This document shows positions 4,330-7,728 of a stretch of DNA of 64,000 bases, in pieces; position 1 is the stretch's first letter; every line of letters begins with the position of its first letter. The notes under the pieces are model-generated. The model made no database searches. It saw only the letters and a program-made list of their open reading frames with translations, and was not told where the DNA came from. The DNA is from Flavobacteriaceae bacterium (GTDB taxonomy: Bacteria; Bacteroidota; Bacteroidia; Flavobacteriales; Flavobacteriaceae), in contig JAURRA010000006.1 in NCBI GenBank assembly GCA_030835825.1, forward strand, positions 1 to 64,000, written 5' to 3'. Made by a program: the position numbers and the translations under genes.

Positions 4330-4396
4330 CAACAAAAGAGCTGAAAACAATTTTCTCACTTCTGATAAATATTTAACCATAGATTTTCCCACAAAC

Positions 4397-5470
4397 TTGT
4401 CGGCTATTGAGCGCAGAATTAAAGCAATTGACGCTTTGCGATATGCCTCTACCCGGAATTATGTTGACGGAGCAGTTACCTATTTAAGTCCGTATATTTC
4501 AAGAGGGGTTATTTCTACGAAACAAATTTTTCAACATCTATTGAGCTTAGAACTCCATTGGTCCGCTATTGAAAAATTGGTTCAAGAGCTCGCTTGGAGA
4601 GATTATTGGCAAGAAATTTGGACGGCAAAGGGCCATGCCATAAAAAGCGATTTAAAGCATATTCAAGCGCCCATATTTAACCATGCTGTACCCACTGCGA
4701 TTCTAGACGCTACAACTGGAATTGATGTTGTGGATCGCGCTATTATTGGACTCTACGATACTGGTTATATGCATAACCACATGCGCATGTACGTCGCGTC
4801 AATATGCTGTAATATGGCTAACTCACATTGGCTGCAGCCTGCCCAATGGATGTATTCCCATCTTTTAGACGGAGATTTGGCTAGTAATCATCTGAGTTGG
4901 CAATGGGTGGCTGGAGCCTTTTCAAATAAAAAGTATTATGCCAATCAAGATAATATCAACACTTTTTTTCGCAGTTCTCAAAAGGGGACCTTTCTTGATG
5001 TAGATTACAGTGAATTTGACCAATTTGAAGTACCAAATGATCTTGTGAAAACGACTCCGTTTATCTTAAAAACGATATTGCCAGCAGTTGAGAGACCCCC
5101 ATTAAATAGAAACCAAACTACTTTGATTTACAATTATTATAATCTAGATCCTCATTGGTATAAAGATCAAGATGTTCAAAGGGTTTTGTTGCTGGAGCCC
5201 TCCGTTTTTAGCGACAACCCAGTCGGTCAGAATGCCATTGATTTTGCATTGAAGCTTTCAGAGAATATTCCTGACATTAAAATTTTTGTCGGCGAATTCA
5301 TGGACTTGAAAAAAGAAATGAGCATTGATAAAATAATTTACAAAGAGCATCCTTTAAACTCACACTATTCAGGTCGGGAAGAATCTAGAGATAGTTTGAG
5401 CAGTGTTAAAGGCTATTATCCCTCGTTTTTTGCATTTTGGAAAAAGTGTAAAAAAGAGATAAAGTATTGA
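4397..5470 (+). CDS. photolyase/cryptochrome-like FAD-binding protein with apparently permuted domains
   Basis: From a TTG codon this gives 357 residues. Residues about 20-210 match the helical FAD-binding domain of class I photolyases: YLSPYISRGVIS (29-40), ELAWRDY (64-70), TGYMHNHMRM (122-131) and LLDGDLASN...WQW (156-170). No alpha/beta antenna domain precedes it. Instead residues about 240-345 look like one (strand-helix pattern TTLIYNYYNL, RVLLLEPSVF, IPDIKIFVGE, DKIIYKEHPL), so the domain order seems reversed. The frame stays open upstream to 4262 without ATG, GTG or TTG. Remembered homologues begin near the ATA at 4379 (IDFPTNLS). A flavin-dependent DNA repair or light-sensing role is likely but unproven. 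It is followed after 24 nt by the flavin-reductase-like gene. Confidence 0.85.
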   Translation: MSAIERRIKAIDALRYASTRNYVDGAVTYLSPYISRGVISTKQIFQHLLSLELHWSAIEKLVQELAWRDYWQEIWTAKGHAIKSDLKHIQAPIFNHAVPTAILDATTGIDVVDRAIIGLYDTGYMHNHMRMYVASICCNMANSHWLQPAQWMYSHLLDGDLASNHLSWQWVAGAFSNKKYYANQDNINTFFRSSQKGTFLDVDYSEFDQFEVPNDLVKTTPFILKTILPAVERPPLNRNQTTLIYNYYNLDPHWYKDQDVQRVLLLEPSVFSDNPVGQNAIDFALKLSENIPDIKIFVGEFMDLKKEMSIDKIIYKEHPLNSHYSGREESRDSLSSVKGYYPSFFAFWKKCKKEIKY

Positions 5471-5494: not shown

Positions 5495-6127
5495 ATGATT
5501 TTAAAAACAGAGGACTTAAAAAATCTCGATCGAATTTATAGATTAAATTTAATCAATTCAATATCTGGTATTAAGCCAGCAAATCTTATCGCGACCAAAT
5601 CCAGGTCAGGACAGGACAATGTCGCCATTTTTTCTTCCGTAGTCCATTTGGGTTCGAATCCGCCTCAGTTAGGTTTTGTGATGCGACCGCAAGTCGAGCC
5701 ATTTACAGACACTTACACCAATATTTTAGAAACGGGTTTTTATACCATTAACCATGTAACCGATGCTTTTGTAAAAAAAGCACACTATACATCGGCAAAA
5801 CTCAAAGCCGATGAATCTGAGTTTGACGTTATGGCAATCCAAAAACAGTATATCGAAGACTTTTTTGCCCCATTTGTTCGGTCAAGTCCTGTTAAGATTG
5901 GCATGAAGCATCTCGAGAGTATTTCTTTAACTAATGCCTGCATTTTTATCATTGGCGAAATCGTTCTTGTGGATGTGTTGGACACTTCCGTTGACAAAAA
6001 GGGTCAGTTGGATTTGAGTGCCCATAAAGGTGTTGGAATTTCAGGTTTAAACACCTATCACGGACTCCCTAAAATTGAAACCTTTCCTTACGTTCGAGAG
6101 AATGAAATACCAACTTTTGATGACTAA
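5495..6127 (+). CDS. flavin reductase-like FMN-binding protein
   Basis: A 210-residue cytosolic protein with the split-barrel flavin-binding fold of the flavin reductase / DIM6-NTAB family. The N-terminal half carries the typical pattern [20 protein letters not shown], then [19 protein letters not shown], where family members bind FMN. It probably reduces or carries flavin using NAD(P)H. Its place between two flavoprotein photolyase-like genes suggests it serves the same light or flavin process, possibly keeping FAD reduced; that link is inference. Its stop codon overlaps the start of the DUF2256 gene by 8 nt. Confidence 0.85.
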
Positions 6128-6257
6128 GTCACATTTGCCGACTAAAATATGCCCTGTGTGTCAGCGACCGTTTAGCTGGAGAAAAAAATGGGAGCGCGAT
6201 TGGGAGAATGTCAAATATTGCAGCAAAAAATGTATCAAAAACAAAGCACATGCGTAA
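6120..6257 (+). CDS. DUF2256 zinc-ribbon-like small protein
   Basis: A 45-residue protein starting at the ATG inside the motif ATGACTAA, where it overlaps the flavin reductase stop by 8 nt. A longer in-frame start at 6075 or 6105 exists, but DUF2256 members are usually 40-50 residues and start just before LPTKICPVC. The core [17 protein letters not shown] is followed by [11 protein letters not shown], giving two CxxC / CxxxC pairs likely to bind zinc. Function is unknown. From memory, DUF2256 genes often neighbour photolyase or cryptochrome genes, as here. It overlaps the following photolyase by 8 nt as well. Confidence 0.85.
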
Positions 6258-7728
6258 CGCGGTTAATTTGATTTTCCCCCATCAATTATTTTTGAATAGT
6301 CCACTGTTCAAAAATGATTTTGAGGTTTACCTCATCGAAGAGTACTTGTTTTTTAAACATTACCAATTTCACAAGCAAAAAATTGCTTTTCACCGCGCTT
6401 CGATGAAGTCATATCAGCAATTTTTGATAAGTCAAGGGTGCAAGGTTCATTACATTAGTGCAGACCATGTTTTGGCCGATATTAGAAATTTTCAACAAGA
6501 AATGATTTCAAAAGAAATCAAAGAGATACATGTTGTGGATCCAACTGATGAGTGGTTGCAAAACAGATTGAATGGTTTGAAACAATCGTGTGATCTTATC
6601 ACTTACCAAAACCCTCAGTTTTTTAACTCCATTAAGGACTTGAGTGTATTTTTCAGAAAAGACAAAAAATCGTTTTTTCAAACTTCATTTTACAAACAGC
6701 AACGACTCAAAAGGGGTATTTTGGTAGATGAGAACAATCAGCCTGACGGTGGCCAATGGACCTTTGATGTTGAAAACCGCAAAAAGTTTCCCAAAAACAA
6801 AATACCACCAACCATACACTTTCCTGAGCCTTCTGATTTCTGGGACGAAGCTGTCGCATATACAAAAACCCATTTCGGCGATAACCCCGGAGAACTGTCC
6901 AGTCAAAGAATTTACCCCATCGATCACCAAGAATCTTCCGAATGGTTAGAGCAATTTTTCACTTATCGGTTTTACGATTTTGGTGCCTACGAAGACGCCA
7001 TTGTAAAAGACCATGTCTTTTTAAATCACAGCATTCTGTCTCCTCTGATGAATGCCGGTTTAATTTTGCCCTGCGAAGTAATTGAGAAAACACTGCATTT
7101 TGCGGTGGAAGAAAAGATTCCCATCAATTCAACAGAAGGATTTGTTAGGCAAATTATTGGTTGGCGCGAATTCATTCGTGGCATGTATTGGTCTAAAGGC
7201 AATTTCTCTAGAACTCAAAATTACTGGAACTTTAAACGCAAGATTCCGCAATCTTTTTATACTGGGACCACAGGAATTGATCCTGTCGATGACGCTATAA
7301 AAAAGGTATTAAAAACGGGTTATTGCCACCATATTGAGAGGTTGATGGTTTTAGGCAATTTTATGTTTTTGTGTGAATTCGACCCCGATGAAGTTTATCG
7401 GTGGTTTATGGAATTGTTTATCGACGCTTATGATTGGGTCATGGTGCCCAATGTCTACGGTATGTCTCAATTTGCCGATGGCGGCACCTTTGCAACCAAG
7501 CCCTATATCGGTGGCTCGAATTATATAAAAAAAATGAGTGATTATTCCAAGGGAGCATGGGAGCCCATTTGGGACGGGCTGTTTTGGAGATTTATTCATA
7601 ATCAAGAAGGCTTCTTTCTTAAAAATCCTAGAACCTCAATGATGGTCCATTCTTTTCGTAAAATGTCTGACGAAAAGAAAAACGGTCACCTGGTCCAGGC
7701 AGAACAATTTTTAAAACAATTGGCTTAA
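6250..7728 (+). CDS. PhrB/CryB-like photolyase lacking the Fe-S cluster cysteines
   Basis: A 492-residue member of the prokaryotic (6-4) photolyase / CryB family (COG3046-like). The chosen ATG precedes NLIFPHQLF; a start at 6208 would only add residues overlapping DUF2256. Residues 5-110 form the alpha/beta antenna domain ([12 protein letters not shown] at 41-52), and 230-480 the FAD-binding domain ([18 protein letters not shown] at 297-314, [14 protein letters not shown] at 358-371, [12 protein letters not shown] at 401-412, ATKPYI at 415-420). In PhrB four cysteines hold a 4Fe-4S cluster; the aligned positions here are about Pro345, Ser433, Ala436 and Pro439, so no cluster is expected. Repair or photoreceptor function is likely; substrate is unknown. 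Confidence 0.9.

Follow-up and report, generated by a model that had tools for sequence, protein, structure and literature searches.

A FAD-first photolyase of reverse domain order, probably CPD-specific, in the Bacteroidota

Can a photolyase carry its FAD domain first and its alpha/beta domain last, and what kind of enzyme would such a protein be? This question is raised by a gene at positions 4379–5470 (forward strand) of the stretch of Flavobacteriaceae DNA analysed here (64 000 nucleotides, hereafter the window). A sequence-only reading had placed a FAD-binding domain at the N-terminus of the encoded protein, had matched the C-terminal part by eye to the antenna lobe of the PhrB-like photolyase encoded downstream, and had proposed either a circular permutation or a domain swap. 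The location of this gene holds, with the precision that position 4379 is an in-frame ATA, the first TTG standing at 4397. The protein comprises approximately 363 residues from the ATA, or 357 from TTG 4397 to the stop at 5470 (residue numbers below count from the TTG), and Pfam, alignment, AlphaFold2, VIA-align and the active-site columns together describe it as a reverse-order, probably CPD-specific photolyase.

The FAD (catalytic) domain covers residues 1–219 (4397–5053, forward strand). Indeed, Pfam placed FAD_binding_7 (PF03441) at residues 62–183 (E = 3.5e-21) and found nothing else significant in the whole 357-residue protein. Conserved residues and structural alignment point to the same domain, as about the first 211–221 residues of the model fall on photolyase FAD lobes in VIA-align, with Z values up to 17.0. 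Since model residues 1–211 pair with residues 204–464 of the Escherichia coli photolyase 1dnp_A (Z 16.8, 211 residues, 2.7 Å), the N-terminal alpha/beta lobe is absent before the FAD domain. The placement of PF03441 and this structural alignment thus agree with the earlier claim of an N-terminal FAD domain lacking any preceding alpha/beta domain. By sequence, the closest solved relatives are class I photolyases, in an alignment limited to residues 16–176. In 13 of the 24 relatives listed, an in-frame stop lies five codons upstream of the start codon. VIA-align also recorded a resemblance between the photolyase FAD fold and a chain of a Trypanosoma brucei mitoribosome assembly intermediate (7pub_Ff, Z 15.5; 7pua_Ff, Z 14.5).

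The architecture is not restricted to the window. A scan of species genomes found relatives encoded in 213 of 274 pattern-matched stretches, and because the best 80 of these 213 match nearly the entire query, at 55–79% identity, the two-domain arrangement can be called conserved. The possibility of a pseudogene or truncated class I gene was ruled out by the same near-full-length match and by the strong conservation in the best 80 of the 213 relatives. Among these 80, 76 are labelled Bacteroidota or subgroups, the other four being metagenome-assembled genomes (MAGs) labelled Akkermansiaceae, Verrucomicrobiales, Verrucomicrobia and Gammaproteobacteria. Loci repeating others (L103-L106, L112, L144, L145 and L148) were left out. 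When 99 genomes of the phylum were searched with the C-terminal domain, 10 gave a match, the window's own included, in open frames of 367–417 amino acids, and no stand-alone C-domain was seen among them. In a phage collection, 10 records matched 41–45% of the query, in the FAD part only; Foldseek on the full protein against viral models gave two matches at E ≤ 0.001 (197 and 232 columns), one named Tetraselmis virus photolyase; and scans of viral contigs with the Deinococcus protein P0004 and alignment A1 found no relative.

The relatives also bear on where translation begins. The nearest in-frame stop upstream of TTG 4397 lies 46 codons away, and no ATG, GTG or TTG stands between the two. Relatives have ATA, ATG, GTG or TTG at one same codon, two codons ahead of a conserved FPT, and the window gene has ATA at this position (4379–4381, forward strand; M-D-F-P-T-N... 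if read as a start). ATA 4379 is thus possibly the real start, whereas TTG 4397, six codons further on, remains the alternative; the closest relative, L001, has the ATA and lacks the later TTG. Altogether, of 81 genes (the window's and the best 80 of the 213 relatives), 24 lack any ATG, GTG or TTG from the in-frame stop up to the conserved start. The homologous codon is ATA in 21 of them, ATT in two and GTA in one, and ten of the 24 meet their next ATG, GTG or TTG 42–124 codons downstream, within the FAD domain. Among the 21 ATA genes, 17 have an ATA that shares bases with the stop codon of the gene upstream (14 ATAG, 3 ATAA). On a quickly drawn tree, the ATA trait appears in scattered places (12 changes as drawn, of which well-supported branches force two), and it occurs in named strains (e.g. 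Cyclobacterium qasimii and Brumimicrobium glaciale) besides MAGs. Eleven further homologues (L085-L093, L099 and L100) include no ATA start, all having one of ATG, GTG and TTG ahead of the conserved block. A later start would be possible in the ATA genes of the window (its TTG), L001, L009, L024, L038, L040, L063 and L074, since each has a GTG, TTG or ATG no more than 13 codons past the position of the TTG. By contrast, the ATA genes of the cultured species Agaribacillus aureus (L026) and Hanstruepera ponticola (L051) have no later start close by. Fusion with an upstream DUF2805 gene by a minus-one frameshift was judged unlikely, both because that very codon can be ATG, GTG or TTG in relatives and because the window, L001, L011 and L026 have the ATA without an overlapping upstream gene. 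A search of the literature on AUA start codons returned nothing on ATA in these photolyase genes.

After the FAD domain, a linker (5054–5113, forward strand) runs from the last FAD-domain alignment to the first strand of the C-terminal domain, which occupies 5114–5467 (forward strand) and closes with a helix bearing SFFAFWKKCKKE. AlphaFold2, given the 50-sequence alignment A1 (A1 and A2 each comprise the window protein and 49 of the 80 loci), modelled the full protein with a pLDDT of 95.6 and a pTM of 0.92. The C-domain of the model has strands at 242–246, 261–266, 294–298, 313–316 and 327–329, and its helices include 278–288 and 344–354; across the 50 aligned sequences, its invariant columns are Y248, N249, D251, E267, K316, H318, P319, R331, S343–F345 and W348. 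Folded in isolation, the C-terminal 126 residues (232–357) reached a pLDDT of 93 and a pTM of 0.80. This isolated domain was aligned by VIA-align to Foldseek's 1000 highest chains, and ranks 1–9 were all photolyase or cryptochrome N-terminal domains, led by PhrB 6dd6 (Z 7.1, 94 residues, 2.4 Å, chain 2–131); 1owl gave Z 6.7 over 117 residues (4.1 Å, chain 3–164). Photolyases and cryptochromes filled 36 of the best 50 VIA-align rows, and 27 of these 36 were confined to the N-terminal domain. Computation thus shows a predicted photolyase alpha/beta lobe fold for the C-domain; structure prediction followed by structural search had been set beforehand as a test, and an unrelated C-terminal fold did not turn up.

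Nonetheless, the fold match alone is no proof, because all Z values lie below 8, where a score can stem from a shared arrangement, and because rows within 1 Z of each other count as tied, so that a HAD phosphatase (rank 10, Z 6.3) stands level with the best row. A universal stress protein follows at rank 12 (Z 6.1). The C-domain might accordingly be an unrelated Rossmann or HUP-like domain with no more than a resemblance to the photolyase lobe, and the protein a FAD domain fused to a new partner. Besides these close followers, this alternative can call on Foldseek, in which the best 50 of 946 matches to the isolated domain were unrelated proteins with no photolyase among them, none of the 50 reaching E ≤ 0.001 (lowest 0.063), and on Pfam, which had no match on the window's C-domain. 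Over the 50 aligned C-domains, Pfam reported no photolyase model and no family in more than two members, and a search of PDB sequences with the C-domain profile gave a single, unrelated match (E = 0.58). On the other hand, photolyases hold the first nine VIA-align ranks, and links in sequence lead to class I through the Deinococcus-type domain.

Reverse domain order is, indeed, already in print, and the window protein joins an existing reverse-order kind. The available part of one article (PMC13274461) gives NewPHLs/SPLs an inverted domain topology, after Emmerich 2020. The available text of another (PMC9426592) describes reverse order for cyanobacterial Phr4-7, with phr4 and phr5 adjacent in marine Synechococcus, phr6 fused in two Cyanobium strains, and Prochlorococcus Phr7 also devoid of FeS cysteines. 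A literature search under ‘circular permutation’ and related words gave nothing relevant, though the same idea has been published in other wording. Like the NewPHL/SPL proteins, which comprise alphaproteobacterial members and Prochlorococcus Phr7, the window protein has an N-terminal FAD domain, a smaller C-terminal domain and a CPD-type active site; a tryptophan pair, reported for the Dinoroseobacter NewPHL in the available part of PMC8948257, has its counterpart in W145/W168. NewPHL/SPL proteins are also characterised by CPD repair in single-stranded DNA; the residues of the window protein fit CPD repair. The C-domain motifs differ, with YNYYNLD, LEPSxF, KEHP and SFFAFWKKCKKE in Bacteroidota against TPYxPVGP and GFFxFKxxIP in NewPHL. 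Our further searches gave 9 matches in one case, of which 8 were read as new (4 NewPHL-type, 1 split FeS-type, 3 canonical class I), and 14 in another, of which 11 were new, all of NewPHL type.

The reverse-order FeS photolyases (Phr4+Phr5, Phr6, some SPL proteins and the Deinococcus type) likewise begin with the FAD domain and have the alpha/beta domain at the end or in the gene that follows, but carry four FeS cysteines that the window protein lacks. Plasmid matches led to such ‘FAD-binding domain-containing’ proteins, with the FAD domain first and about 150–200 residues after it, and our FeS-type set consists of the fused Deinococcus proteins P0004, P0007 and L140 and the split L141 and L111. 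In the latter two (L141:896-2187, Deinococcus sp. QL22; L111:971-2262, reverse strand, from a genome of the same phylum as that of L080), the halves are separate genes with overlaps ATGA and GTGA, the FAD gene with four cysteines coming first and a stand-alone alpha/beta gene second, which resembles the Synechococcus phr4/phr5 pair and the fused Cyanobium phr6 as given in the available part of PMC9426592. Two photolyases of canonical order serve for comparison. The class I CPD photolyase of the window's own genome (contig C10, L081/L121) shares the CPD residues, a homologous FAD domain and a related alpha/beta domain; in contrast to the reversed window protein with its histidine, it has the alpha/beta domain at the N-terminus and an arginine at the H128 position. 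The PhrB-like photolyase encoded downstream is of the type that supplies, with the N-terminal lobe of 6dd6, the best structural match of the window's C-domain; it differs in its canonical order and in its active site, with a histidine at the N127 position.

Profile comparison covered ten pairs of domains, with 20 reversed profiles (P 0.037 to 0.72) as controls and, for the pairs given with a shuffle count below, 150 column shuffles each; the PhrB alignment A3 held 49 of 50 rows and the canonical alignment canN 25 of 27, two failing the motif pattern. The class I N-terminal alpha/beta domain and the Deinococcus-type C-domain aligned over 133 columns (P 5.9e-7; 0/150 shuffles as good), and PF00875 matched two of the three fused Deinococcus C-domains (E = 7e-4 and 1e-3) and, of the two split domains, the stand-alone one of QL22 (E = 2.3e-4), each below the curated cut-off, with no match on L140, on the L111 domain or on that of the window. 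By these sequence comparisons, the Deinococcus-type C-terminal domain is clearly to be read as a class I antenna-type domain. It is linked in turn to the alphaproteobacterial, NewPHL-type C-domain (113 columns, P 4e-4, 0/150) and to that of the window family (62 columns, P 0.0034, 1/150), which also reached class I directly (65 columns, P 0.0069, 3/150); these window-family links are modest, two among the ten pairs. The NewPHL type against class I gave P 0.052, and direct comparison of the window family with the NewPHL type gave no significant link (P 0.38; in the other orientation, a score of 15.5 over 95 columns, with 8/150 shuffles as good).

As regards PhrB, the comparison of A2 with A3 recovered 26 columns (the RVLLLEPSVF stretch) in the very register that had been proposed by eye, yet without significance (P 0.019, probability 2.4%; P 0.046 for the window family in the series against PhrB, in which the NewPHL type gave 0.23 and the Deinococcus type 0.64), and class I and Deinococcus-type domains outscore PhrB against the window's C-domain by sequence. 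Thus, what is supported of the sequence-only reading is the FAD domain first and a photolyase-type alpha/beta domain last, whereas the pairing in sequence with PhrB is not significant. Weak scores were nevertheless to be expected, since the same test leaves even the accepted pair of class I and PhrB undetectable (P 0.09, 13/150 shuffles as good). The window's C-domain appears weakly tied to the photolyase lobe, better than that accepted pair and not beyond doubt. Given this benchmark, the route to class I via the Deinococcus-type domain and the structural ranks, we regard an unrelated C-domain as improbable. With the predicted strands and helices, VIA-align ranks 1–9 and the profile links in agreement on a C-terminal photolyase-type domain, the reverse order, FAD domain first and alpha/beta domain last, is confirmed for the protein encoded at 4379–5470.

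What this protein does was approached through its FAD domain. In the FAD alignment, E64, W67, N127, M131, W170, R130, D158 and N164 are present in 19/19 Bacteroidota-type rows. Both there and in an alignment to 1owl, E64, W67, N127, M131 and W170 stand at what we take to be the CPD-contact positions of class I enzymes, and N164 is presumably the asparagine near flavin N5. W145 and W168 are likewise kept in 19/19 rows, and the third tryptophan position holds valine in 12, isoleucine in six and tyrosine in one; the loss of this third tryptophan was read from a pairwise alignment to 1owl, in which W314 faces I93, because in the FAD alignment the class I rows are out of register at this column. 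Position 128 is histidine in 44 of 45 reverse-order rows and arginine in 27/27 class I/DASH rows, and the four FeS-cluster cysteines found in the five FeS-type proteins are absent from the window protein at those columns. PhrB rows differ at the E64, N127 and M131 columns in 10/10, and the DPRP domain of Pfam (PF04244) had no match in the window protein.

The active-site residues suggest that the protein is probably a CPD photolyase, its lesion specificity being predicted. Reduced FAD in the N-terminal domain would be excited by blue or UV-A light and would pass an electron to the cyclobutane pyrimidine dimer, which would then be split; photoreduction would proceed through a tryptophan pair rather than three tryptophans. 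The C-domain would pack onto the FAD domain and close it, like the N-terminal lobe of ordinary photolyases. A role for it as a lid without pigment seems somewhat likelier than one as an antenna, and a putative working antenna is a possibility that we hold with some reserve.

The gene neighbourhood was considered in turn. Downstream in the window, all on the forward strand, follow a flavin reductase-like gene (5495–6127; PF01613, E = 1.5e-13), a gene for a 45-residue DUF2256 protein (6120–6257; PF10013, E = 7e-22) and the PhrB-like photolyase of canonical order (6208–7728; PF04244, E = 2.6e-53 at residues 21–233, and PF03441, E = 1.3e-8 at 317–411). The DUF2256 gene begins before the reductase gene ends and runs past the first ATG in the PhrB open frame, for which ATG 6250 may be the true start. 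Of the best 80 of the 213 loci, 63 have DUF2256, 57 DUF2805/TIGR03643, 53 PhrB and 30 the flavin reductase, always on the photolyase's strand. The full row (DUF2805, photolyase, flavin reductase, DUF2256, PhrB) occurs in 18 of the 80, the same row without the reductase in 17, and DUF2805 with the photolyase alone in 10. Where at least 4.5 kb of downstream sequence is available (65 of the 80), DUF2256 is found in 52, PhrB in 46 and the reductase in 26; where at least 600 nucleotides are available upstream (78 of the 80), DUF2805 lies close upstream on the same strand in 56. The window is without this upstream DUF2805; in its own genome, a DUF2805/TIGR03643 gene (C10:95755-96015, L158) stands near the class I photolyase (C10:97649 onward, L121) instead. 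At one locus (L071:6252-7736), PhrB appears as two adjacent open frames, possibly through a frameshift or a split gene. A literature search for a photolyase with these operon partners found no paper. The PhrB of this gene row probably handles 6-4 lesions.

A photolyase-like sequence is by itself no proof of repair, and the window protein could in principle be a cryptochrome-like light receptor; the invariance of the CPD-contact residues in 19/19 rows and the proximity of PhrB in the 53 loci counted above make this highly improbable. Probable repair of CPDs is the reading retained here.

It remains to place this enzyme among the reverse-order photolyases. A tree of 82 FAD domains was built from 17 of the 50 A1 rows plus two from Persicobacter, 10 of the 50 PhrB rows and the other types, and includes no protein knowingly taken from Emmerich or Xu. 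Three reverse-order clades emerged, namely Bacteroidota (19 rows, 100/97), alphaproteobacterial (21 rows, 100/99) and FeS (5 rows, 97/93), so that the alphaproteobacterial NewPHL/SPL members stand apart from those of Bacteroidota. To judge by these FAD-domain sequences, reverse-order photolyases have a third clade in the Bacteroidota proteins, one devoid of FeS. The order of the three clades relative to class I is left unresolved, and the tree program warns of long branches; the 45 reverse-order rows are not one clade in the best tree, and a single clade is not rejected (p-AU 0.364). The H128 shared by nearly all reverse-order rows, against arginine in class I/DASH, favours a single origin. 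Altogether, the gene product is likely a CPD photolyase from the reverse-order (NewPHL/SPL) superclass, belonging to a separate Bacteroidota clade without an iron–sulphur cluster.

Two further readings concern this order. In a domain swap, a true homologue of the alpha/beta lobe would be docked elsewhere on the FAD domain; the changed domain order and a new linker of about 20 residues are in its favour. The pTM of the full model speaks for one confident arrangement, though not for which one, and we consider this reading unlikely. The other is that a single circular permutation, in a class I-like photolyase, gave rise to all reverse-order photolyases (the Bacteroidota clade, NewPHL and the FeS type, fused or split) and that these have kept a real antenna domain, which in some of them binds pigment, a scenario that we put forward tentatively and hold short of an even chance.

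The class I lobe recurs as the Deinococcus-type C-lobe and, weakly, as the Bacteroidota lobe, which argues that the lobe was moved rather than absent. SPL photolyases have been proposed, in the available parts of PMC9649867 and PMC9498864, as possible ancestors of photolyases and cryptochromes lacking the N-terminal alpha/beta lobe; if a single circular permutation is true, the photolyase family would, contrary to that proposal, not descend from an antenna-less ‘short’ class. The Bacteroidota clade is broad, often adjoins PhrB and includes cultured genera, and its ATA start across several genera would offer a naturally occurring case in which to study non-canonical initiation.
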